Source of the DNA: Nitrospirae bacterium CG02_land_8_20_14_3_00_41_53
GTDB lineage: Bacteria > Nitrospirota > Thermodesulfovibrionia > Thermodesulfovibrionales > SM23-35
Direction: 5' to 3'
DNA length: 32,311 bases
Assembly (NCBI GenBank): GCA_002780895.1
Contig: PEUB01000009.1
Span: 1 to 32,311 of the forward strand
The notes beneath the pieces were generated by a model. The model had not been told where the DNA came from and searched no databases. It saw only the letters and a program-made list of their open reading frames with translations. This document shows positions 1 through 32,289 of the stretch, in pieces; position 1 is the first letter of the stretch, and every line of letters starts with the position of its first letter. Position numbers and translations under genes: made by a program.

Positions 1-102
1 GAAAAGATAGACCGGATAATCTCCGACCACATCTCATCCATCACAAGCCAGAAGTTACAGAACAAGATTCTACAAAAGTTGCAAGGGGAATTGTTTGGAT
101 AG
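1..102 (+). CDS. C-terminal end of an unknown protein (partial)
   Basis: An open frame runs from base 1 to a TAG at 100-102 and encodes the last 33 residues of a protein that begins outside the window. The tail is rich in I, Q, K and L (it ends LQKLQGELFG), which fits an amphipathic helix. I do not recognise the family. It sits upstream of the promoter at 154-183, so it is probably not part of the operon that follows. Nothing more can be said from this fragment. Confidence 0.45.
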   Translation, partial: EKIDRIISDHISSITSQKLQNKILQKLQGELFG

Positions 103-130
103 GGTTTAGTAAACACGAATTCTGACCTTA

Positions 131-146
131 TGTAAAATATTTTACA
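131..146. promoter_or_regulatory. Operator O1, 16-bp perfect palindrome
   Basis: TGTAAAATATTTTACA is its own reverse complement. The same 16 bases recur at 162-177, with 31 bp between starts, which is about three helical turns and places both copies on one DNA face. O1 lies just upstream of the -35 element. The likely ligand is the HTH protein encoded at 561-1397, as in autoregulated toxin-antitoxin operons; that link is inference. Confidence 0.75.
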
Positions 147-153
147 AAATCTC

Positions 154-183
154 TTGACAAATGTAAAATATTTTACATATACT
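154..183 (+). promoter_or_regulatory. Sigma-70-type promoter of the four-gene operon
   Basis: TTGACA at 154-159 and TATACT at 178-183 are separated by 18 bp. The -35 is a perfect consensus match and the -10 matches 5 of 6. The spacer is almost entirely occupied by the second palindrome (162-177), so a bound repressor would exclude RNA polymerase. The first gene starts at 253, giving a leader of roughly 60 nt. Confidence 0.75.
162..177. promoter_or_regulatory. Operator O2, identical palindrome inside the promoter spacer
   Basis: This is the second exact copy of TGTAAAATATTTTACA; the symmetry extends one more base on each side (A at 161, T at 178). It fills the gap between the -35 and -10 elements, the classic position for repression by steric exclusion. 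Confidence 0.75.
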
Positions 184-252
184 TTCTTATGGCGTTATTT
201 TCTATTTACACCCCTGAATTTTTAGAATGTAGCTGCGGGTATGGAATTTTAA

Positions 253-549
253 ATGACCTTAGAAGAAATACAGTTACTAGTATTAAAGGGTAGATACAAC
301 TATTCTGATAAGGTCAGAACTTTCATAGAAGAAGGCTGGTATTCAGAAGAAGATTTGGAGTGTTGCCTTAGAAATGCTACTAAAATCCAAAAAGTCGAGA
401 AAGATGAATTAAAAACCTCAGTTGACGAAAAGAAGTATGTGATTTTTGGAAAGGATATACATGGATGTGTATTCTATACGTGCGGAAAGGTAAAAAAAGA
501 CGATGAAGGCAAACTATATTTTTTTATTACAGCACATAAAGCAGATTAA
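253..549 (+). CDS. DUF4258/MqsR-like small protein, putative toxin
   Basis: This 98-aa protein opens with a helical part (TLEEIQLLVLKGRYNYSDKV) and ends with a beta-rich block, residues 59-95, in which KKYVIFGKDIHG and KLYFFITAHK match the usual DUF4258 pattern (a strand, GKD, a strand, then ITA near the end). DUF4258 proteins are small RelE/MqsR-fold proteins commonly paired with MqsA-type zinc-finger antitoxins, and that is exactly the next gene here. The likely role is a ribosome-dependent or free mRNA interferase, but activity cannot be read from the sequence. The start ATG has only a weak Shine-Dalgarno. The gene is first in an operon with a strong operator-laden promoter, and the toxin-first order is the one seen in mqsRA. 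Confidence 0.7.
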   Translation: MTLEEIQLLVLKGRYNYSDKVRTFIEEGWYSEEDLECCLRNATKIQKVEKDELKTSVDEKKYVIFGKDIHGCVFYTCGKVKKDDEGKLYFFITAHKAD

Positions 550-560
550 AGGTGAGAACA

Positions 561-1397
561 ATGTTTAATTATATTTGTGAGGAATGTGGTAAGGGAACTG
601 TAAAAAAGAAGGTTTTTGAAAATTATCAAACAAAAATTAAAGGGTATCCTTTTGTTGTTGATAAGGCTGTAATCGGTGTTTGTGATCAGTGTGGGGCAAG
701 GCATTTTGACGCAAATGAAACAAAACGCTGGGAAGAACTTTATAACAAGAATTTAGAATTAAAACACATTTCACTATTATCCGATGAAATCGAGGCAGTA
801 AGGAAATCTTTGGGCCTTTCGATGGAAGATTTTGCCTATCTTATTGGATGTACTCGTCAATCGATTTATAATTGGGAGAAAAAAGACAGAGAGAAACCAC
901 AATCTAGGATGGCTGATTTACTTATAAAACTTGTTCGCCTTTCCTTCAAGGGTGAAAAAGTAGATGTTATAAGTTTTCTTGTCGATGAAGCTAAAAAATT
1001 AGGAATTATAATACAAACAGGCAAAGCATTTGCTCTTGCAAATAATATAATCCCTCTTAATGTTAAAAGGGTTCCTCAGAACTATTTTCAGGAATCACAA
1101 AAAAATCTCCGGTTAGCTGCAAAAGTACTTGAGGAAAAAGAACTGACAATAGCTGAATCATCAAGCCAAGAGTTGATTGGCATTTTACGTTATGATTATA
1201 AGACAGCTGATTTATCTTTAGAGATAATAAAAGATACATTTGGATTAAGAAAAGTAGATGTTGAACTTATAACAGCTGACGATAAACACTTTATAAAACA
1301 AAACGTGAAATTTAAAGATAATTGCATTTTATTGATCTCTGCTACGGAATATACAGAAAACAAGGTGAAAGAAATTTTTTTAAAGCCAAGAGCTTGA
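561..1397 (+). CDS. MqsA-like zinc-finger/HTH protein with long C-terminal extension
   Basis: The 278-aa product begins with a zinc-binding module: C6-x2-C9 and C41-x2-C44, the YgiT/MqsA arrangement. An XRE-type helix-turn-helix follows at about residues 76-110 (LGLSMEDFAYLIGCTRQSIY, then NWE). Classical MqsA ends near residue 130. Here about 145 further residues (135-278) continue as a mixed alpha/beta region I do not recognise, ending in beta-rich ISATEYTENKVKEIF. I chose ATG 561 over GTG 552 because AAAGGTGAG at 548-556 is well placed for it. It lies 11 bp after the DUF4258 gene and 15 bp before the protease/RNase gene. It probably neutralises the DUF4258 protein and binds the two upstream palindromes. 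The extra domain could sense a signal or contact the protease; this is inference. Confidence 0.8.
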   Translation: MFNYICEECGKGTVKKKVFENYQTKIKGYPFVVDKAVIGVCDQCGARHFDANETKRWEELYNKNLELKHISLLSDEIEAVRKSLGLSMEDFAYLIGCTRQSIYNWEKKDREKPQSRMADLLIKLVRLSFKGEKVDVISFLVDEAKKLGIIIQTGKAFALANNIIPLNVKRVPQNYFQESQKNLRLAAKVLEEKELTIAESSSQELIGILRYDYKTADLSLEIIKDTFGLRKVDVELITADDKHFIKQNVKFKDNCILLISATEYTENKVKEIFLKPRA

Positions 1398-1412
1398 GCG
1401 AAAGGTCCCAAA

Positions 1413-3752
1413 ATGGGTAATGAAGGTCATGTGGAAAGATTAAAAGGACTGAAAAGGCTTCTACGTGAAGCCCTTATTTTGCCTCCTACGTTTGCGAAGG
1501 GACAAGAAGTTCAACAAGTAGATGAGCATTTTCAGGATATCTGCAGATTAGTTTTCACTGATGATTATTATCTTCATATATGGGATGAAGGAGCACTTAA
1601 TCAATTACTGGAATTTTTCAAAGTGAAATCGCCTAAACAAACAGTATATGGAGATTGTCTCGCAAAACTTTCAGAGCGTAAGACTTTTGTTCAAAAAGCG
1701 AATGAACTTTTTTTCTCCATAATTAGCAAAGAATTTCCTATAGAGGAAGTTTGCAAGAGGCTATCTACATTTACCAAAATTGATGAATCAGCTTCTTTGA
1801 AACTTCAGGCTTCCAACCATTTCCAGGACATTAGAGTGACTAAGTTTCCTGCCTCTGAAAAGATTGAAGCTTTTATTGAACATCTTATACAGGATATAGG
1901 CGTCAATTTCGGAAAGGTAGAAGAAGATTTGAGACAGGTTATCACCTCTATGAAAACACAAGAAGCCCCAGGAAGGGTAAATGCACTTATGGTTAATGCC
2001 CAAAGCAATGTAGGTATTCTCGTTCCATTATCAATTCGCCTTCAACATGGAAGGGGTGAAGTAAATTGCCTTGTATCTGGTAGTGACGATTTTAAAACAG
2101 CAATAGATAGGGCCAGGCATTCACTACTCAGCAATGGTTTTCTCAGTAGCACAGATGATGTAGTATATTCTTTAGATATTACTGAGGCAAACTACAGCGG
2201 AGATTCTATAGCTTTGGCAGCTGCTATTGCAATGTATGCTGCTGCAACAAATCAGCCAGTTGACCCTTATACAACTTTTACAGGTGATATAAACCTCGAT
2301 GGCAATCGGTACAAGATTGCATCTATTAAAGGGATTCGCCCTAAACTCGATGCCGCTTTACAGAACGGATGCCGGCGTATTTTTGTCCCCAAACAGAATC
2401 AGACAGAAGTTAGCGCTGATTATGCTAAAAAATTGCAGATTGTCTATGTTAGTGATATTACAGATGTATTACTGAAATTACAGACTACTCTTGAACCTAT
2501 CCCTGGCGACACACTCCAAATAAGAAAAATTAACCTTTTACAAGCGCATTGTCAGGATAAAGGCTGGGACTTATCACAGCCCCAATCCATTCAAGATGGC
2601 TTGCAATTTACTATATCTCCTCTTCATCCACCGGAGCTTAAGATTAATATCTATAATACTGGAGCCCATTCCCCAAAAAAACATGAAAAATCTGATTTCC
2701 AAGAATTATTAAATGAGTGGTCAGTTCTCGATCAATCAAAAATTCCTATCCAGAAAGTTAATGTAACTTTTTTAATCAAAGACGCTGAACTTAGAACACA
2801 GATAAGAGAACGATTAGATAGCTTAAAACCAGAAAGCCGGCAAGAGCAGCACTGTGAATATTCTTATCGTTTTGAAGACGGCAAGGAAAATCTTGTCATA
2901 AAGCAATATACAACTGGGAAATTACTACTTCAAGGTAATGCCGGAAATTTATATAAAAAAATTCTCGATATTATTATCCCTTTATATAATTTAAAGAATC
3001 CAAAGGCACAGATATCTACTGGAGATTACTTAAAATATGAAACTAAGGAAGACACGTCTGTAAAAAAAGGGCTTTTAAAAACACCCGAAGCTAATATCCC
3101 GTTCCCTCATATCGGCACAGATGAGTCAGGAAAAGGAGATTATTTTGGTCCTATGGTTATTGCCGGCATTTGGTTAGATGAATCCACTAAAGCAAAGCTT
3201 GAAGTCATAGGGATTAAAGATTCTAAACTCCTTTCTGATAAACGCTGCCGGGAGTTGGCAACAAAAATTCGAGAGATATGTAATGGGAAATTTGAAGAAA
3301 TCGAAATACCACCTGAACGATACAATGAATTATATGACCAGTTTAAAAAAGAGGGTAAAAATCTTAATCATCTTCTTGCCTGGGGTCATGCTCGGGCTAT
3401 TGAAAGCCTTCTCGGAAGACAGCCATGTTCTCATGCTGTTGCTGATCAGTTTGGTGATGAAAAGTTTATACTTTCCAAGCTTATGGAAAAAGGTAAAGGA
3501 TTAGAACTCGTCCAAATCCCAAAAGGTGAACGTTACATTGCAGTAGCAGCAGCTTCTATCTTAGCTCGTGATCGGTTTTTGTCTCGTATGGAAATGTTGA
3601 GTCAAGAATATGGCATCGTTTTACCAAAAGGAGCATCTGATATGGTTGTTCAACCTGCCCGGTTAATTGTTGAGAGAAAAGGTATTGGTGAACTTAAAAA
3701 AGTCGCCAAGCTTCATCATAAAACAACACAAAAAGTTTTAGAAAAAGCTTAA
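1413..3752 (+). CDS. Lon-type (S16) protease domain fused to RNase HIII
   Basis: This 779-aa protein carries two enzymes. Residues 1-180 are helical and unrecognised; there is no AAA+ ATPase domain. Residues 185-355 match the Lon proteolytic domain: YSGDSIALAAAIAM holds the nucleophile Ser265, and GIRPKLDAALQNG followed by RIFVPKQN holds the partner Lys311. Residues 400-525 look like the TBP-like substrate-binding part of RNase HIII, with two similar strands (INIYNTGAHSP and IKQYTTGKLLLQG). Residues 565-775 are the RNase HIII catalytic domain: GTDESGKGDYFGP with Asp570 and Glu571, IKDSKLL, VADQFG with Asp678, and VAAASILARD. RNase HIII cuts RNA in RNA:DNA hybrids; S16 domains cleave protein by a Ser-Lys dyad. 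AAAGG at 1401-1405 supports the start. The next gene begins 2 bp downstream. All key residues are present, so both activities may be live. Fusion with RNase HIII is not known to me. Confidence 0.85.
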   Translation: MGNEGHVERLKGLKRLLREALILPPTFAKGQEVQQVDEHFQDICRLVFTDDYYLHIWDEGALNQLLEFFKVKSPKQTVYGDCLAKLSERKTFVQKANELFFSIISKEFPIEEVCKRLSTFTKIDESASLKLQASNHFQDIRVTKFPASEKIEAFIEHLIQDIGVNFGKVEEDLRQVITSMKTQEAPGRVNALMVNAQSNVGILVPLSIRLQHGRGEVNCLVSGSDDFKTAIDRARHSLLSNGFLSSTDDVVYSLDITEANYSGDSIALAAAIAMYAAATNQPVDPYTTFTGDINLDGNRYKIASIKGIRPKLDAALQNGCRRIFVPKQNQTEVSADYAKKLQIVYVSDITDVLLKLQTTLEPIPGDTLQIRKINLLQAHCQDKGWDLSQPQSIQDGLQFTISPLHPPELKINIYNTGAHSPKKHEKSDFQELLNEWSVLDQSKIPIQKVNVTFLIKDAELRTQIRERLDSLKPESRQEQHCEYSYRFEDGKENLVIKQYTTGKLLLQGNAGNLYKKILDIIIPLYNLKNPKAQISTGDYLKYETKEDTSVKKGLLKTPEANIPFPHIGTDESGKGDYFGPMVIAGIWLDESTKAKLEVIGIKDSKLLSDKRCRELATKIREICNGKFEEIEIPPERYNELYDQFKKEGKNLNHLLAWGHARAIESLLGRQPCSHAVADQFGDEKFILSKLMEKGKGLELVQIPKGERYIAVAAASILARDRFLSRMEMLSQEYGIVLPKGASDMVVQPARLIVERKGIGELKKVAKLHHKTTQKVLEKA

Positions 3753-3754
3753 AT

Positions 3755-5077
3755 ATGGAACAAGACGTTGCTATTAACCAGATAGACGAAAAAAAATTAC
3801 TCGAAAAAGCAGAAGATTTGAAGGACAGTGAAAGGTGGCGAGAAATAATTTCCCTCTTGAGTCCATACCATCAAGCAGGTAAGCTTTCCATCGAGGGATT
3901 AAAGATAATTGGCCATAGTTACTCACGGAATAAAGATTACGATAAAGCTATAGGTATCTATCAAGACTTGTCTCAAAAACAGCCTCTTGAAGCAATATGG
4001 CCTTATTGCCTTGCATACCAGTTTCGAGGTAAAGAGGATTTTAAATCCGCAATTGAAGCTTATGAAAAATGTCTGGGAATATATCCAAGATGGCTTAAAG
4101 TTTTTTCTGAATTAGCAAGGCTTTATAAAGAAGTTGGGTCAGTTGAAAAGGCTCTTAAAACTTGTCGAGATGGCATTCAAATATACAAAACTATGACGCC
4201 TGATCGTCAGAAGGAATTTGCAGTAATTTATTCAAAACTCTGCACGATGGCAGCAAAACTTATATGTCCTGTTGAAAACAGAATCAAAGCCGATATGGAT
4301 GAAGCAGAGTATCTATTTAAAGAAAGTATTAACGCAGACCTCCAAAATGCTGAGACATGGTATCGTCTTGGGGACTTTCTCTTAAAAGCAGGTAACCCTG
4401 ATGAAGCTATTCAGTATTTACAAAAAGCAGAATCACTGGCTCCGAAAAAAGAATATATCCCTCACAAAATTGCCCAAGCCTATCTCAAAAAGGGTGATCC
4501 AGATCAAGCGCTAAAAGTTTATGAAGCAATCCCTCACTATAAAAGGACGCCTTATATATTACATGGAATAGCTGAATGCCTGATTAATAAAGGAGAGCTA
4601 AAAGAGGGCGCATACCATCTTTACGTAGCGGCTCAACGAGAACCAGAAAAATGGTATCACCTTAGAGATTTAGGCTTGGCACTCGCTCAACTGGGAGATC
4701 GTGATCAGGCAATTGAAAACCTTGATAAAGCCAATCAGTTATATAAAAAGGAAAAAGGAAAGGATTTCAATAAAATTCTTGCTAAGATTGAGGAACTAAA
4801 AGAAATATCCAAAGGGGAACGTATTATTTTTGAAAACCCTGACACGTCTGTTACAACTATTTCCTATGGTGTCGTCACTAAGTATAATTCTGAAAGAGGC
4901 TTTGGTTTTATTAAAGATAACAATGATGGGGAAAATGTTTTCTTTCATATCAGCAAAGTTAAAAACCGCATGGGAATAGAGCCTTCGCCTGGATTACACG
5001 TGAAATTCGTAAAAGAAATAGGAGAAAAAGGTCCCCAAGCATCCAAAGTATGGGTGACTACAAACAATGATAAATAA
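3755..5077 (+). CDS. TPR-repeat protein with C-terminal cold-shock domain
   Basis: Residues 1-345 of this 440-aa protein are a run of tetratricopeptide-like helical hairpins; clear units include AETWYRLGDFLLKAGNPDEA and KWYHLRDLGLALAQLGDRDQ. Residues 370-435 form a cold-shock (OB-fold) domain, with RNP1-like RGFGFI at 381-386 and RNP2-like VFFHI at 395-399, which bind single-stranded RNA or DNA. No signal peptide or membrane segment is seen, so it should be cytoplasmic. Its ATG lies 2 bp after the protease/RNase HIII stop, implying translational coupling and a shared job, plausibly bringing RNA or partner proteins to the fusion enzyme. The pairing of domains is clear; the role is inference. 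Confidence 0.85.
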   Translation: MEQDVAINQIDEKKLLEKAEDLKDSERWREIISLLSPYHQAGKLSIEGLKIIGHSYSRNKDYDKAIGIYQDLSQKQPLEAIWPYCLAYQFRGKEDFKSAIEAYEKCLGIYPRWLKVFSELARLYKEVGSVEKALKTCRDGIQIYKTMTPDRQKEFAVIYSKLCTMAAKLICPVENRIKADMDEAEYLFKESINADLQNAETWYRLGDFLLKAGNPDEAIQYLQKAESLAPKKEYIPHKIAQAYLKKGDPDQALKVYEAIPHYKRTPYILHGIAECLINKGELKEGAYHLYVAAQREPEKWYHLRDLGLALAQLGDRDQAIENLDKANQLYKKEKGKDFNKILAKIEELKEISKGERIIFENPDTSVTTISYGVVTKYNSERGFGFIKDNNDGENVFFHISKVKNRMGIEPSPGLHVKFVKEIGEKGPQASKVWVTTNNDK

Positions 5078-5113
5078 GTTGTTTTCTGTGACCCTGATAC
5101 AGGTAGCAAATTG

Positions 5114-5221
5114 ATGGAAGACCTTAGTTGCCATACAACGCATGTCGAAATTAGATTGTGGGATAAAGAAGGCATCTACCCTTGTACTTTTGAAGAAAAT
5201 TGGGAAGCATATTGCAAATAA
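5114..5221 (+). CDS. Possible 35-aa small ORF after the TPR/cold-shock gene
   Basis: The frame of the preceding gene stays open for 47 codons beyond its TAA at 5075-5077, until TAA 5219-5221. An ATG at 5114 would give a 35-aa peptide rich in W, C, H and E (EIRLWDKEGIYPCTF). There is no convincing ribosome binding site. It could be a small protein, a decayed 3' end of a once-longer gene, or chance. I do not recognise it. Confidence 0.2.
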   Translation: MEDLSCHTTHVEIRLWDKEGIYPCTFEENWEAYCK

Positions 5222-5261
5222 GATCGATTCCATTTAAGATTTCAGCGCGCAGCAAAACTTT

Positions 5262-5280
5262 ATGCCCTGACGCCGGGCAT
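5262..5280. repeat. Short inverted repeat (hairpin)
   Basis: ATGCCC (5262-5267) and GGGCAT (5275-5280) pair across a 7-nt loop. It lies between the four-gene operon and the DUF4258/DUF2283 pair. No T-run follows at once, so it is a weak terminator candidate at best. Confidence 0.35.
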
Positions 5281-5329
5281 TCTGGATAAGGTTTTTAATA
5301 AAAAGTTGTAAGAAAAGGCATGATTTAGA

Positions 5330-5611
5330 ATGCAAATAAAATATTCAAAACATCTTAAAACGAGACTTATCTTAAGGAAGATCGACTATGATCTGCCTCA
5401 ACAAATCTTTGAAAAGGCAGAGGAAAGATTCATGGATACTTTAACAGGGCATTCAATAGCAGTGGCTAAAGTTGTAATATATGACAAGGAGCGGGATGTC
5501 ATGGTAGCATATAAGCATGAAGAAGTAGATGTTAGACTTCTGACAATACATCCTTTAAAAGAGGGACAGAAAGATAATAGAGTAAAAACAAGCAGGTGGA
5601 GGAGGCTTTAA
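5330..5611 (+). CDS. DUF4258-family small protein (putative toxin-like partner)
   Basis: The 93-aa protein reads YSKHLKTRLILRKIDYDLPQ, then IFEKAEERFMDT, then KVVIYDKERDVMVAYKHEEV: the start, helical signal and two late strands of DUF4258-like/RelE-type small proteins. DUF4258 genes are often followed by DUF2283 genes, as here. The stop TAA overlaps the next ATG by one base (TAATG at 5609-5613), so translation is coupled. The C-terminal end is basic (KTSRWRRL). An active nuclease role is not established for this pair, so I call it toxin-like only. It is unrelated in sequence to the DUF4258 gene at 253. Confidence 0.65.
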   Translation: MQIKYSKHLKTRLILRKIDYDLPQQIFEKAEERFMDTLTGHSIAVAKVVIYDKERDVMVAYKHEEVDVRLLTIHPLKEGQKDNRVKTSRWRRL

Positions 5612-5820
5612 TGGATGATTTTAAGGTCTTTTATGATGATGAAGAAGATATTCTCTATCTCGCAAAAGAGGGAGAAGAAGCAGAGGTTGTAGAACTTTCT
5701 CCTGGAGTTAACATGGAGCTTGATGGCAATGGAAATCTTATAGGTGTAGAACTTTTTCAGGCATCGCGTATGTTTAAGGATGTGCTTAAATTAATGGAAA
5801 AGAGGCTTCAAGTTGCATAA
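5611..5820 (+). CDS. DUF2283 domain protein
   Basis: The 69-aa protein MDDFKVFYDDEEDILYLAKE carries the DUF2283 pattern: YD.e.DiLYl at the start, an E-rich strand, then PGVNMELDGNGNLIGVELF, which matches the family's usual D.dG.lvGiEil motif. The ATG at 5611 is preceded by GGAGGAGG (5598-5605) at good spacing, which decides against an in-frame GTG at 5596. It overlaps the DUF4258 gene by one base. It is acidic, which fits an antitoxin-like partner for the basic DUF4258 product; that role is inference. Confidence 0.75.
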   Translation: MDDFKVFYDDEEDILYLAKEGEEAEVVELSPGVNMELDGNGNLIGVELFQASRMFKDVLKLMEKRLQVA

Positions 5821-5870
5821 CTACCAAGGATTTTTATCAGCAACAGAGGCGCTATCTTTATTTCCCAACT

Positions 5871-8516
5871 TTATCTGTCTGCAGATGAAAAATACCCGTG
5901 CTTTTTTATTAATTCATTCCCTTTGTTTATAAAAAACCAGTAATAATCATATTTATCTTCTGCTACTGGATATAAGCCTAAATATTTTTTTGTTTCACTT
6001 CCCATACTTTCCAATCGTGTTGTTTCATACGGCGGATTCCCTATCACACAGTTAAACCCAGAATTTTCCTTCTCTCCTCTTTCAGTGTAGAAAACCTCCG
6101 GAAATTCAAGTTTCCAGTGAAAAAACTTTTTTTCTTTTGCAATGCTTAAAGCCCTTTTACATCTTTCCACATTTTCAGGAAAAGCCTCTTTATCAAGAGC
6201 CATAGTGTATGCAAGTTGTTCCAAATATCCGACATTTTTGCCTAACTCTGTAAAATACTTTGCAGTTGCAACATCAAATCTTCTTCTGATAGGGTCAACC
6301 TCTTCCTGCACATGGTTGTAGAGGGCATAGCTCTTTTTAGCCTCTGTAATGGTCGCATCTGTTAATTCAGATACCTGAAGTAGAAAGGAAAGTGCGCGCT
6401 GAACCTTTGCATAGGCATCCGAGCCGGGGATAATGACATCCGAGATATCAAATACTCCTATCAAACTATTCCCGCACTTCAGATGATGGTCAAGGAAAGA
6501 GAGCGGTGCTCCGAGGGTAAAGGAGTCAAGCCACAGAGAAAGCTTTGCAAGTTCAACAGCCATGTCATTGAGGTCAACACCGTAGATGCAGCGTTTCATG
6601 ACCATGCGCTTTATGATATTTACTTCGGTAAGCTTACTATTATCAATACTCACACCCTGCCTTTTAATTTCTTTAAGGATTTCTGCTCTTAATTCTTCAA
6701 TCTTTTTTATAACCGGATTTTCGGGATAATCGGCAAGAAAAGACACTATCCTGTCAGAAATAAAATCAACTGTATGGACAAGAAAATGACCGCTCCCCAT
6801 TGCAGGGTCAAGGACTTTGATATCGAAAATCGTATTGAATACCTTATTTCCCAATTCCAGCATTTTTGCCCTATAGCCCTGAATGCCGCTTGTTGATTTT
6901 TGCTTTTGCAATGCTTTGGTGGTATTTTCAAACTCAGCAAGCAGACTTTTGGCAGCTTCCAGCTTTTCATCAATCATAGGGCCGACTGTGTTTCTCACGA
7001 TATATTCAACAATATAATGAGGTGTGTAATAAGAACCTGTGGCCTTCCTTTCATGTTTTGAGTTCTCGATATAAACCGCATCAGTCTGTTTCCTGCTGAT
7101 AACCTTATCTTCTTTTTTAATCTCGGATGCCTTCTTCCAGAATGATTTACCCTTCTCTCTGACCTCAGCCATCTCTTCTTCTGCAATCTGGACATGAAAT
7201 TCAAGCAGTCCCTCGTATATATCTCCAAGATGTCTAACATTAAGAGAAGAATAATCTATGAAAGGAGCCGTAGATGGTGCATATTCGCCCTCATGGTCAG
7301 TTGTAAGAATCTCTATTGCCTTTGCAATGAAGGGATCTGGCATTTTATTTGTGGATAGAAAACTATTCTTCTGAGTTTCAAATAAACCGCCATTGTAGAC
7401 AGGCACATTCAGCGCTGAATCACCATTTGCAATGATATTACAGAGGCTCTCGAGTTTTGCCCAGTATGCATAAGACTGCTTGCTTATTTTAGCAAGCTCT
7501 GTCGTTGCCAATTCTTGATGGATATCCCGTTTAAGTTTTAAGAGGCTGACTTTGTTATATCCTTCTTCCCCTACAGGCAGGAGATTTCTGCTTTCAGCAT
7601 AAAGAAGAAAAAGCAGGCGGTAAAGCAAGGTAAGACATCCTTTAAAGATTTCCTTTCTGCTCTCATCAGTTTCTTTTTTCACTGAAAGAGCATATCTTCT
7701 GTAATGAACAAAACCCTCAGCAAGTCCTTCAAAAACCTCGTCAAAAATTAACTCTTTTAATTTTGTGCTTACTCTTGCAGCATAATCTTCTGTTCCTTTT
7801 AGATGTTGATCAAGCCATGTCGCTCCGGTGACAGGATCAGGTATAAATGCATCTCTTGAGAAAAAGAGATAGAAATAGAGAAACTTTTCAAAATCACCTC
7901 TAATGAGTATTTCTTCGAGGTCTATTTCAAAGAAATTCCCTGAGCGTGACGCTGCCTTGTAATAGAAAAGCCTCCAGTGCTTTCCATTCGTAAGGATTGC
8001 CCAGTTTATCTTGCCGTCTGTATGCAGATGCACGTCTTCGAGATATTTAACGGTCTGGGCTGTTGGGTCACGGCTGTCAAGAATGTCTGTTTTGTCGGAA
8101 TCATTAAGACGTCTTCCCCAGTATTTGGCTTCAAGAATTGTCAATGCCTGAGAAAAGAATTTTTTGGGCTCGGTTTTATCCTTGCTTGCTGTTTTCAAGG
8201 CGCTTGAATCTTTGAACAATGCATAATCAGGTCTTTTCTTCTTAAAACCCCTGCGTGTTAGAGGCTGGACATTATACGCATAGCCGAGTTCAGTGAGCAC
8301 AGGTCTGATAAATTTATCTTCAAGGTCGGCCTCTTGCCCTGGCCCAAGATTCAAATCTTTAATCGTGCCGTAAGATTTCGTGACGGCTTCAAAGACCTTG
8401 CCGATCTTTTCCTTCTGTTCATTCCACAGGGAAGTTGTAGGCAGGTGGTGTTCAAGGTAGTTGTTTGAGAAAAGGTTCTGGTTGTTCCAGAGAAATAATC
8501 CAGTCTTTTCAGGCAT
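5871..8516 (-). CDS. Type IIG (Eco57I-like) restriction-modification protein, C-terminally truncated
   Basis: The 881-aa frame has an N-terminal PD-(D/E)xK nuclease (RPDYALF with Asp97; LEAKYW with Glu129 and Lys131), a long helical linker, and an N6-adenine methyltransferase domain with motif I DPAMGSGHF from residue 570 and motif IV NPPYE from 827. It stops 54 residues after that motif with GYFSSADR, just where such proteins normally read GYFSFITPN and go on for several hundred residues as the target-recognition domain. That part is missing, so the protein probably cannot recognise a site and is likely inactive. I chose ATG 8516; an in-frame TTG 27 bp upstream has no better support. TTGAAA (8546-8551) and GATACT (8524-8529), 16 bp apart, form a promoter only 7 bp from the ATG, suggesting a leaderless message. 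Confidence 0.8.
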   Translation of the reverse strand: MPEKTGLFLWNNQNLFSNNYLEHHLPTTSLWNEQKEKIGKVFEAVTKSYGTIKDLNLGPGQEADLEDKFIRPVLTELGYAYNVQPLTRRGFKKKRPDYALFKDSSALKTASKDKTEPKKFFSQALTILEAKYWGRRLNDSDKTDILDSRDPTAQTVKYLEDVHLHTDGKINWAILTNGKHWRLFYYKAASRSGNFFEIDLEEILIRGDFEKFLYFYLFFSRDAFIPDPVTGATWLDQHLKGTEDYAARVSTKLKELIFDEVFEGLAEGFVHYRRYALSVKKETDESRKEIFKGCLTLLYRLLFLLYAESRNLLPVGEEGYNKVSLLKLKRDIHQELATTELAKISKQSYAYWAKLESLCNIIANGDSALNVPVYNGGLFETQKNSFLSTNKMPDPFIAKAIEILTTDHEGEYAPSTAPFIDYSSLNVRHLGDIYEGLLEFHVQIAEEEMAEVREKGKSFWKKASEIKKEDKVISRKQTDAVYIENSKHERKATGSYYTPHYIVEYIVRNTVGPMIDEKLEAAKSLLAEFENTTKALQKQKSTSGIQGYRAKMLELGNKVFNTIFDIKVLDPAMGSGHFLVHTVDFISDRIVSFLADYPENPVIKKIEELRAEILKEIKRQGVSIDNSKLTEVNIIKRMVMKRCIYGVDLNDMAVELAKLSLWLDSFTLGAPLSFLDHHLKCGNSLIGVFDISDVIIPGSDAYAKVQRALSFLLQVSELTDATITEAKKSYALYNHVQEEVDPIRRRFDVATAKYFTELGKNVGYLEQLAYTMALDKEAFPENVERCKRALSIAKEKKFFHWKLEFPEVFYTERGEKENSGFNCVIGNPPYETTRLESMGSETKKYLGLYPVAEDKYDYYWFFINKGNELIKKHGYFSSADR

Positions 8517-8655
8517 ACAGTAAAGTATCAGGATTCTTGACAATTTTTCAAGGATTAAACTATCTTTTCAGGGGTTGGAACGAGACTTACTTGAGCAAAG
8601 GGTAAGCTCAAAGGAGCACCATAGGCGGAGAAGGCATTACTTTTTTTTCATTTTC

Positions 8656-9210
8656 TTATTCAGGCTGTCGGAACGGATTTGCCCTCAGTACCTGAGAAAG
8701 TTTTAAAGGTCTTCCTTCAAATACAAAGACTGCCAGACCCCTGTCTTCTGTTCTTTTGCCTCCGGCTATCCAGGTGCCCTTCCATGATACATTGACGGAA
8801 ACTACTGAATCCTCTATCTCAACCCATGTTGGAGTAAATGTGAGTTCAGCGCTGTCAAAACTTTTAATGACACCGATAAGTTCCCTATAGCCATCTTTTG
8901 TAGAACTCCTCTCGAGGGTTTCACGGTCATTCTTTATATAGGCATTTCTAATAGTCTCCGCAAGTCCAAATGCCTCTTGTGCTATCTTCGATTCCGGCGA
9001 AACCGGCCTGACCTCTTTCTTGCCGCATGATAGCAGGAGTAAGACTCCAATAAGATAAATAAAAATTAAAAATGTAAAATGTAAAATTATGGAATTTCTT
9101 ATTTTTGAATTTTTTATCTGAAAATCCCCCCTCCCCCCCTTTGCTAAAGGGGGGTTAGGGGGGATTACTTTTATTGTACTTTCTATAACTATGTTATATA
9201 AATTTTTCAT
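8656..9210 (-). CDS. Putative lipoprotein with a repeat-extended leader
   Basis: The product has a hydrophobic stretch (LIFIYLIGVLLLLSC) ending in a lipobox with Cys62 and a soluble domain of about 120 residues (QEAFGLAETIRNAYIKNDRE, later SVNVSWKGTWIAGGKR) resembling NTF2-like or DUF-type secreted domains; I cannot name the family. Residues 16-30 (IPPNPPLAKGGRGDF) are translated from the palindromic repeat at 9123-9166, so the leader is about 61 residues, far longer than the usual 20. The ATG at 9210 has no Shine-Dalgarno; the real start is uncertain and may have been displaced by the repeat. It follows gyrB on the same strand, 25 bp after its stop. Confidence 0.6.
   Translation of the reverse strand: MKNLYNIVIESTIKVIPPNPPLAKGGRGDFQIKNSKIRNSIILHFTFLIFIYLIGVLLLLSCGKKEVRPVSPESKIAQEAFGLAETIRNAYIKNDRETLERSSTKDGYRELIGVIKSFDSAELTFTPTWVEIEDSVVSVNVSWKGTWIAGGKRTEDRGLAVFVFEGRPLKLSQVLRANPFRQPE
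9123..9166. repeat. C/G-run palindromic repeat
   Basis: AATCCCCCC at one end and GGGGGGATT at the other flank an imperfect palindrome with TTTGCTAAAG in the centre. On the minus strand it is read as PPNPPLAKGGRGDF, a peptide familiar from dispersed repeats in several phyla. A related element lies in ispD at 28351-28434. Confidence 0.75.
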
Positions 9211-9235
9211 TTTAAATTTTAAATTAAGGTAACGC

Positions 9236-12821
<3,586 letters not shown>

Positions 12822-29263: not shown

Positions 29264-29726
29264 CCTCTTGCTTTATCCTCAGATGTGAATGGTAAATTTT
29301 GCATTGACGACAGAATCTTGAATATGATTAACTTATCATAGAGGTGTTTAAATGAGAGAGGCATTAAGATATTTAAATAATGCAAAGGAAATACTAAAAT
29401 CTGCTCCTATTGAAGATAATACTTATACTGACATAAAGCCAGTTCAAGAAGCATGCGGAACCGCCTACCTTGCAGTATTGAAGTCTATCGACGAATACCT
29501 GGTGAACAGAGGGGTAAACCCTAAAGATTTGCCGCAATCTATTGAAGGATACAGAGAAATGATTAGAAAATATCTATCTGTTCATAACGGTAAACTCACT
29601 AGAGAATTCGAAAAACTCTATAAAGCATTACATATTGCAGGATATTATAGAGGGCTGTTGGAAGATGTAGATATGGTAAAAGCTGCGATTAAATCTGCAA
29701 AGGCTTTTATTGGAAAGATTGGGTAA
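29211..29726 (+). repeat. Duplicated segment, copy 1 (ispF 3' end + DUF5618-like gene)
   Basis: From GTGGTGGAGGC at 29211 the sequence parallels 31739 onward: the last 17 codons of ispF, a spacer containing ATGATTAACTTATCAT/GTGATTAACTTATTAT, and the DUF5618-like gene. The copies are clearly related but well diverged, so the duplication is old. Confidence 0.8.
29352..29726 (+). CDS. DUF5618/HEPN-like small helical protein, copy 1
   Basis: This 124-aa all-helical protein reads ALRYLNNAKEILKSAPIEDN, then QEACGTAYLAVLKSIDEYLV, then RKYLSVHNGKLTREFEKLYK. I believe this is the DUF5618 family, whose fold resembles HEPN proteins. Arg72 and His78 form an R-x5-H motif typical of HEPN RNases, though outside the classic R-N context. 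The function is unknown to me; many HEPN-like proteins pair with MNT-type nucleotidyltransferases, and one lies 0.7 kb downstream. A second copy about two-thirds identical lies at 31846. The ATG follows GAGGTGTTTAA. Confidence 0.65.
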   Translation: MREALRYLNNAKEILKSAPIEDNTYTDIKPVQEACGTAYLAVLKSIDEYLVNRGVNPKDLPQSIEGYREMIRKYLSVHNGKLTREFEKLYKALHIAGYYRGLLEDVDMVKAAIKSAKAFIGKIG

Positions 29727-30218: not shown

Positions 30219-30401
30219 ATGTTAAAAAAGTATAAAACCTTTGAAGATGCTGAAAGAGACCTTTGGTGTTTCAATCCCGACAGGGATTATTTTAACAGGA
30301 TTTTTGTTATGATGCGGACAGAAATCTTCAGTAAAACCCTCAGGGCGAGGAGGGGAGTATTCAAATACAGGACTATCGAAGATGCACAGAAAAACTCCTG
30401 A
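30219..30401 (+). CDS. Small protein (60 aa) upstream of and overlapping a nucleotidyltransferase
   Basis: The 60-aa protein reads KKYKTFEDAERDLWCFNPDR, then RRGVFKYRTIEDAQ. The repeated pattern F/Y-x-T-hydrophobic-EDA at each end (KTFEDAE and RTIEDAQ) marks a small family I remember next to AbiEii/DUF6036-like nucleotidyltransferases; the name is unknown to me. It overlaps the next gene by 20 bp in another frame, so the two are translationally coupled. An antitoxin or partner role is inference from position. Confidence 0.65.
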   Translation: MLKKYKTFEDAERDLWCFNPDRDYFNRIFVMMRTEIFSKTLRARRGVFKYRTIEDAQKNS

Positions 30402-30870
30402 TGAGGGTTTTCTTAAAATCTGCAATGCCTTTAACAGACGCGGTGTGGAATATATAGTGATTGGTGGTTTTGCCATGATTATGCATGGCCTGCCAAGAAC
30501 CACTGTAGATATTGATTTCTTTATCAACGGCAGCCCTGATAATATGGAAAAAATAAAAGATTCACTCAAGGAAGTTTTTAATGATGAGGAAATAGAAGGA
30601 ATCTCACCATCAGATGTAAGTGAATATTCAGTTATCAGATATGGAACTCCAGACGGGTTTTATATAGACCTCATAGGGAAATTAGGAGAGGCTTTTAAGT
30701 TTGATGATTTCAAAAGTCATATAGAAACCTTTGAAATTAATCACATAGACATACCGGTTTGTGACGTGGAAATGCTCATAAAAATGAAACAAACTGTTAG
30801 GACAAAAGACATTACGGACATAGAGTTTTTGCAGGAGAAGTTGAGGCAAAAGAAAGGTATTGATTATTGA
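30382..30870 (+). CDS. MNT/AbiEii-type nucleotidyltransferase (DUF6036-like)
   Basis: The 162-aa protein has the pol-beta nucleotidyltransferase signature: IGGFAMIMHGLPRTTVDIDF with Gly28-Gly29 and the metal-binding Asp43 and Asp45, then FYIDLIGKLGEAF holding a third acidic strand. Proteins of this group include toxins that add nucleotides to tRNA or other targets (AbiEii, MenT) and MNT antitoxins of HEPN toxins. Here it follows a 60-aa partner and lies between two HEPN-like genes, so either relation is possible. Start and end are secure; substrate unknown. Confidence 0.8.
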   Translation: MHRKTPDEGFLKICNAFNRRGVEYIVIGGFAMIMHGLPRTTVDIDFFINGSPDNMEKIKDSLKEVFNDEEIEGISPSDVSEYSVIRYGTPDGFYIDLIGKLGEAFKFDDFKSHIETFEINHIDIPVCDVEMLIKMKQTVRTKDITDIEFLQEKLRQKKGIDY

Positions 30871-31791: not shown

Positions 31792-32220
31792 TATTTCTTG
31801 ACGTCAGATCGTTCAATGTGATTAACTTATTATGAAGGAGCTTACATGAGAGAGGCCATTAGATATTTAAATAATGCAAAGGAAATATTAAAATCTATTC
31901 CTATTGAGGATAATACATATACTGATATTAAACCTGTAAGAGAAGCATTCTCAACTGCCTATCTTGCTATCTTAGAAGCTATAAATGAGTACCTTATAAC
32001 CAGAAAGGGTTTAACCAAGAAAGAACTCCCTAAATCACTAGAAGCATATCGAGACGCTTTAAGAAAGCATATTGCGGTTCATAATGGAAAGTTGATGAGG
32101 GAATTTGAAAAGCTTTACGATGCTTTGCACATAGCAGGATATTATAGAGGGCTTATTTATGATGTGAATATGGTTAAAGATGCATTTAAAGCTGCAAAGG
32201 AATTTATTGAGAAGATTAAG
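31739..32220 (+). repeat. Duplicated segment, copy 2 (ispF tail + DUF5618-like gene)
   Basis: This is the second copy of the block at 29211-29726. It includes the ispF tail, the spacer with GTGATTAACTTATTATGAAGGAG in place of ATGATTAACTTATCATAGAGG, and the helical gene. After about 32220 the copies no longer match. Confidence 0.8.
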
Positions 32221-32289
32221 TGCTGCGATTCAGACACTAAATTTAGGCCAGTTAGGATTTTTTCAAAAGGCCTTACAACTTTTGAATAA
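31846..32289 (+). CDS. DUF5618/HEPN-like small helical protein, copy 2, with altered tail
   Basis: The first 125 residues of this 147-aa protein match copy 1 at 29352 at about two-thirds identity (REAIRYLNNAKEILKS, IPIEDNTYTDIKPVREAF, VHNGKLMREFEKLYDALHIA) and keep the R73-x5-H79 motif. After EKIK it continues for 22 residues (CCDSDTKFRPVRIFSKGLTT) that copy 1 lacks, coded by sequence beyond the duplicated block. GAAGGAG precedes the ATG. Conservation of reading frame and motif in both copies suggests selection on function. Confidence 0.65.
   Translation: MREAIRYLNNAKEILKSIPIEDNTYTDIKPVREAFSTAYLAILEAINEYLITRKGLTKKELPKSLEAYRDALRKHIAVHNGKLMREFEKLYDALHIAGYYRGLIYDVNMVKDAFKAAKEFIEKIKCCDSDTKFRPVRIFSKGLTTFE

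Follow-up and report, generated by a model that had tools for sequence, protein, structure and literature searches.

Four closely spaced genes lie at the beginning of the window, by which we mean the whole stretch of 32,311 nucleotides analysed here (Table 1). In order, they encode a small toxin-like protein, an MqsA-family protein with a long extension, a fusion of an S16 (Lon-type) protease domain with TBP-like modules and RNase HIII, and a TPR-cold-shock protein, with gaps of 2-15 bp between them. The sigma-70-like promoter ahead of them is the best in the region, but the number of such sites there is no higher than in shuffled sequence. The two operator-like palindromes are perfect and 16 bp long, the first standing 31 bp ahead of the second, and in the related locus L052, from the MAG DeMMO4_11, the same TTGACA and TATACT elements surround a palindrome. 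The gaps of 2 and 15 bp, together with the absence of an internal promoter of comparable quality, suggest that the four genes form one autoregulated transcript.

Table 1. Sequence features of the four-gene cassette, in window coordinates (aa, residues of the encoded protein).
Feature	Position	Strand	Remarks
Operator-like palindrome, copy 1 (TGTAAAATATTTTACA)	131..146		exact; 0.06 expected in window; L052 copy with 2 mismatches
Sigma-70-like promoter, TTGACA-18-TATACT	154..183	+	11/12; best site of region
Operator-like palindrome, copy 2, in promoter spacer	162..177		exact in both genomes
Putative toxin, 98 aa, divergent DUF4258/RelE-BrnT-like	253..549	+	profile-profile and weak fold matches; 83% identical in L052
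MqsA-family antitoxin/regulator: CxxCG zinc finger, XRE HTH, 150-aa C-terminal extension	552..1397	+	TIGR03830
S16 protease / TBP-like / RNase HIII fusion	1413..3752	+	single intact 779-aa frame; ortholog in L052
Fusion aa 1-180, all-helical N-terminal domain (predicted)	1413..1952	+	no Pfam/NCBIfam family match
Fusion aa 185-356, S16 (LonB-like) proteolytic domain	1965..2480	+	Pfam, NCBIfam, PDB and fold matches
S265 codon	2205-2207	+	S16 dyad Ser
K311 codon	2343-2345	+	S16 dyad Lys
Fusion aa ~375-430, first TBP-like half (tentative)	2535..2702	+	resembles Nitrospirota RNase HIII N-terminal domain; hhalign E 3e-4, prob 38%
Fusion aa ~450-545, second TBP-like module, RnlA/RNase HIII N-terminal type	2760..3047	+	RnlA_toxin 1.2e-5, DUF3378 0.013 (weak)
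Fusion aa 567-772, RNase HIII catalytic domain	3111..3728	+	D570, E571, D678, E706
TPR protein with C-terminal cold-shock domain (aa 371-434)	3755..5077	+	Pfam TPR, CSD 1e-13; 2-bp gap after fusion

A first-pass annotation, made from the sequence alone, had described the third gene as a single frame holding an S16 dyad without an AAA+ ATPase and a full RNase HIII, and profile and PDB matches recover both domains. That annotation had also allowed that the frame might come from an assembly join. The same fusion in the same gene order stands in an independently assembled genome of a second genus, where it is again 779 aa long and 86% identical, so it is neither a join nor a chance frame. This genome, the Thermodesulfovibrionales MAG DeMMO4_11, belongs to the same family as the window genome, as judged from the genome with identical contig coordinates in the search of the order, and was the only relative found among 84,980 species genomes scanned with exact 8-residue patterns, a method that misses distant relatives and was our sole reach into other phyla. 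Its locus L052 carries the toxin-like gene, the MqsA gene with its extension, the fusion and the start of the TPR gene. Between the two copies, the dN/dS of the fusion is 0.28 (0.36 for the S16 part and 0.11 for RNase HIII); judged by its sequence, the reading frame is under purifying selection. Two of the 176 genomes of the order have the fusion, and the cassette is absent from G284, which belongs to the same genus as DeMMO4_11. A query with the N-terminus and S16 part returned S16-domain matches only, mostly in Lon-length frames, from 396 genomes of the phylum, and no homologue of the fusion was found on plasmids, phages or viral contigs. Split ancestors were considered and rejected: among the RNase HIII genes that stand alone, the closest ones (L003-L005) do not lie beside an S16 or MqsA gene. 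No fusion of S16 with RNase HIII came up in full-text literature searches, whose reach excluded subscription papers and unannotated databases, and a survey of S16 architectures mentions no RNase partner (PMC2605481). The architecture appears to be new but rare.

The protease half is assigned by several kinds of match. Pfam Lon_C matches residues 263-354 (3.4e-10), the nearest NCBIfam models are LonB and BrxL, and the protease domain of A. fulgidus LonB in the PDB matches residues 187-354. A structure prediction of residues 1-372 (mean pLDDT 75) matches the S16 folds of Lon and BrxL (Foldseek 1.3e-9); in this model, residues 1-180 are all helical at moderate confidence, with pLDDT about 70-90 over most of residues 40-180. 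The Ser265/Lys311 dyad lies where the first-pass annotation had put it, in alignment columns invariant with S679 and K722 of Lon. Degeneracy of the site across the family, which would have undercut the annotation, is not what we see: S265 and K311 are kept in both known members (2/2), as are G263, T290, G291 and G307 around them, all aligned with Lon. The context of Ser265 is GDS, which is typical of LonB enzymes, LonA having GPSAG. No AAA+ ATPase module was seen in the fusion in Pfam and NCBIfam searches, the first 180 residues having no Pfam match, and because none is present in the same chain the protein is, by its domain content, an S16-domain protein and not a Lon protease proper. The glutamate of the Lon 'TGE' motif is replaced, by D in the window fusion and by N in L052, and the S16 part has the highest dN/dS among the large domains; together with the presence of BrxL among the closest structural matches, these features could mean that S16 is a non-proteolytic scaffold, a role open to Lon-like folds in assemblies such as BrxL, and that it equips an RNase HIII with a module for oligomerization or protein binding. 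The retention of the dyad and of its four neighboring residues in both members speaks against a scaffold, a reading that we consider distinctly unlikely.

The C-terminal half is RNase HIII by sequence. It exceeds the cut-off of the RNase HIII equivalog TIGR00716 (184.6 bits against 161.2), and it has the two motifs on which the first-pass annotation had based its claim of a full enzyme, GTDESGKG at residue 568 and VADQFG at 676. The acidic set D570, E571, D678 and E706, which we take from established knowledge of RNase HII/HIII to be the catalytic residues, is complete and aligned with a solved RNase HIII in the PDB and with relatives; the catalytic residues of both S16 and RNase HIII are unchanged in L052. 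One of the families that weakly match the second TBP-like module, DUF3378, is the RNase HIII N-terminal family, and fusion residues 453-774 align continuously (42%) with the RNase HIII of a record named as a Microcystis phage. The neighborhood of that gene in the record (MW495066.1, Microcystis phage MaAM05, 228102-241070) includes purF, gatA, coaE, aspS and rnhC, and resembles a cyanobacterial chromosome more than it does phage DNA. Both fusion-bearing genomes encode a separate RNase HII elsewhere, which makes the fused RNase HIII an accessory enzyme and rules out a housekeeping RNase H role for the fusion. The RNase HIII half may nevertheless be the effector, removing RNA from hybrids of invading replicons or from R-loops, with S16 in a regulatory part (for example, self-processing or clearing a bound inhibitor) and the TA pair only controlling expression or retaining the cassette. 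No part of the fusion has a stronger match and none differs less from one copy to the other (2 nonsynonymous differences), and TBP-like modules of a hybrid-binding kind stand ahead of it; its low divergence, however, comes largely from recent exchange (dS 0.036), an RNase HII is already present elsewhere, and the extended antitoxin is left without a reason. We regard an RNase HIII effector as unlikely.

Exchange is evident from the DNA of the two cassettes. Identity between window positions 253-3952 and L052 is a mosaic (75-100%), swinging from ~77-82% to 98-100% along 4 kb, compared with 77% for gyrB-dnaN between the same two genomes, and this contrast implies that the cassette recombines or moves. 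There are several exchange tracts. RNase HIII and the beginning of the TPR gene are nearly identical, and from the pattern of identities we conclude that parts of the cassette, notably these two, were exchanged recently. The cassette as a whole is accessory and recombining. The same truncated end of an upstream gene (KLQNKILQKLQGELF), with no family match, is found at window positions 1-103 and at L052:2-184, so the shared block extends past the start of the contig. Co-conservation of the genes is thinly sampled with two members and could be hitch-hiking within one recombining block. Searches of plasmids, phages and viral contigs found no phage or mobile-element link of the cassette, and a comparison with PHROGs gave nothing decisive.

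The first-pass annotation had called the first gene product a DUF4258 toxin. Its alignment with true DUF4258 proteins of related genomes (hhalign prob 78%, 87/98 columns) fits a divergent relative, but PF14076 is silent even at E<=10, and no Pfam or NCBIfam name attaches to the gene. An AF2 model (pLDDT 82) gives Foldseek matches to the TA toxin 7vd7 (prob 0.98) and to BrnT 3u97 (prob 0.80), both weak at E 0.1-0.5, and dN/dS between the window and L052 is 0.12. One of these DUF4258 proteins (L077) has a zinc-finger gene of YgiT/MqsA type behind it. A divergent RelE/BrnT-like toxin is thus a weakly supported assignment, not an established one. The second gene, described earlier as MqsA-like and 15 bp upstream of the fusion, is just so spaced and passes the cut-off of TIGR03830 (68.5 bits against 61.8). 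Profile searches found no clear family for its 150-aa extension, and a search of 396 genomes from the phylum at E<=1e-8 turned up no relative of the extended protein, the extension being seen in this cassette alone. Since the fusion shares an operon with the toxin and could act on either partner, the protease might also work the other way, removing the toxin or keeping it low, the fusion being a second antitoxin. The unusual extension is on the antitoxin and not on the toxin, and in known type II TA systems it is antitoxins that proteases remove. The described loss of RnlB (PMC3710099) likewise counts against a second antitoxin, which we find very improbable.

The fourth gene follows the fusion directly, and within the order proteins similar to its product at E<=1e-25 are found only in the two cassettes. 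Its start is conserved in L052, where a group II intron lying antisense to it (L052:4040-4155; RF00029, 47.7 bits) splits the gene near codon 66, so that it is probably broken in DeMMO4_11; a sequence related to this intron occurs at G000:C27 (80% over 70 bases).

Elsewhere on the window contig, a second TA-like pair lies directly downstream of the cassette (5330-5820), where a gene for a 93-aa protein of BrnT/DUF4258-like appearance overlaps a DUF2283 gene (Pfam 2.5e-12); L072 has a similar pair. The interval from the cassette to gyrB holds, on the minus strand (5871-8543), a type IIG restriction-methyltransferase-like protein (PADLOC REase_MTase_IIG 2e-77, DrmMI 3e-86), which apparently ends early, after its Eco57I methylase motif. 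At the other end of the contig, two DUF5618 proteins (29352-29726 and 31846-32289) around an AbiEii-like nucleotidyltransferase (30382-30870) form a further TA-like arrangement.

DUF4258 genes are abundant in the host family, one TA-like pair stands just downstream, and cold-shock domains and RNase HIII both work on RNA; the fusion and the TPR-cold-shock protein could therefore be a pair for RNA metabolism or R-loop management, whose only tie to a usual kind of DUF4258-MqsA TA is the operon that they have in common. Against mere sharing stand the order kept in two genera, the common operator and promoter, the very tight spacing and an antitoxin extension found only in this cassette, and we think it rather unlikely. 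The idea of a TA-type operon, put forward in the first-pass annotation, holds up in its MqsA-family gene, its single operator-bearing promoter and its conserved order, and is weaker in the identity of the toxin. The mechanism that the annotation had proposed is a sensible hypothesis with partial support.

The reading that we tentatively prefer is that the fusion is a conditional protease triggered by RNA:DNA hybrids within a TA operon, a possibility whose every signalling step we infer, in part by analogy. The four genes would form an accessory, autoregulated TA-type operon that brings along a conditional protease. Its extended MqsA-like protein would neutralize the RelE/BrnT-like toxin and repress the promoter through the two palindromes. 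The fusion would act as sensor and as switch. RNA:DNA hybrids, such as R-loops or the replication primers of invading elements, would be bound by its TBP-like modules together with its RNase HIII domain, and binding would activate the ATP-independent, LonB-type S16 site. S16 would then clip the antitoxin, the 150-aa extension being the likely docking or cleavage site, and free the toxin, after which the RNase HIII site would destroy the activating hybrid and so limit the response. The TPR-cold-shock protein would probably be an RNA-binding adaptor. This full sequence of events, in which the fusion senses hybrids, cleaves the extended antitoxin, frees the toxin and ends its own activity once the hybrid is digested, is more doubtful than the general reading. 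For a hybrid-switched protease count the intact catalytic sets in two genera, the purifying selection on the frame, the conserved order, the shared promoter with its palindromes, the extension peculiar to this antitoxin and the separate RNase HII of both genomes; against it count the replaced TGE glutamate and the fact that the Lon-like fold of BrxL can serve another kind of machine, as well as the weak identity of the toxin, the existence of only two known members, the intron-split TPR gene in one of them and the outcome of the plasmid, phage and viral-contig searches, which gave no phage or mobile-element link. If the proposal is correct, RNA:DNA hybrids would be a further signal able to trigger an immune or stress response by proteolysis, and a TA module would bring a conditional protease of its own rather than depend on the Lon or Clp proteases that serve the cell at large.

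No catalogued defense system as such was matched in PADLOC, the matches being at the level of domains (BrxL, CARF-Lon). BrxL and archaeal or spore LonB have the S16 sequences and folds closest to that of the fusion, but they carry AAA+ ATPase domains and the fusion has none. Stand-alone RNase HIII proteins of Nitrospirota (L003-L005) are 57-59% identical to the fusion across the catalytic domain, whereas they have no S16, a single short N-terminal domain and unrelated neighbors. DUF4258-MqsA is a catalogued type II TA pair (PMC11980606). There as here, a small RelE/ParE-superfamily-like toxin, putative in our case, precedes an MqsA-family HTH protein, and operator-like palindromes are present; the present operon differs in its divergent toxin candidate, in the 150-aa extension of its antitoxin and in its two further genes.

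The two closest functional parallels make hybrid-triggered cleavage of the antitoxin plausible by analogy. In CalpL, an ATPase-less Lon domain is joined to a sensor of a nucleic-acid signal and, on binding cA4, cuts the partner CalpT (PMC11417357; also PMC9704534), and the sensor degrades its own activator (PMC11417357). CRISPR-Lon (CalpL/CalpT/CalpS; PMC11417357, PMC9704534) thus shares with the fusion an ATPase-less Lon/S16 domain, a nuclease signal module and a regulatory partner. In the fusion, by contrast, S16 comes after a 180-aa helical domain, the putative sensor is TBP-like plus RNase HIII, and the partner is an MqsA-like antitoxin; the PADLOC match to CARF-Lon covers the Lon part alone (fusion aa 260-340). 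Since it has neither SAVED nor CARF and no CRISPR-like repeats were found in 1-9300 (the contig starts at base 1), the fusion, by its domains and surroundings, is not CRISPR-Lon. The second parallel is RnlA-RnlB, in which RNase HI has two tasks, being required for RnlA activation and for bringing in the antitoxin, RnlB (PMC5308261). Hybrids are bound by the TBP-like domain of RNase HIII, a domain also found in RNase LS proteins (PMC3710099). Like the present TA-type operon, RnlA-RnlB has ties to an RNase H and to TBP-like modules of a kind that RNase HIII also has. Profile searches found no HEPN RNase domain and no RnlB, only the TBP-like RnlA module matching, and because HEPN is missing we do not take the fusion for an RnlA. 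Here, in contrast to RnlA-RnlB, the RNase H is of type HIII and is joined to a protease domain, and if our reading is correct this would connect RNase H activity physically with the control of a TA, a question raised by the two puzzling roles that RNase HI plays in RnlAB.
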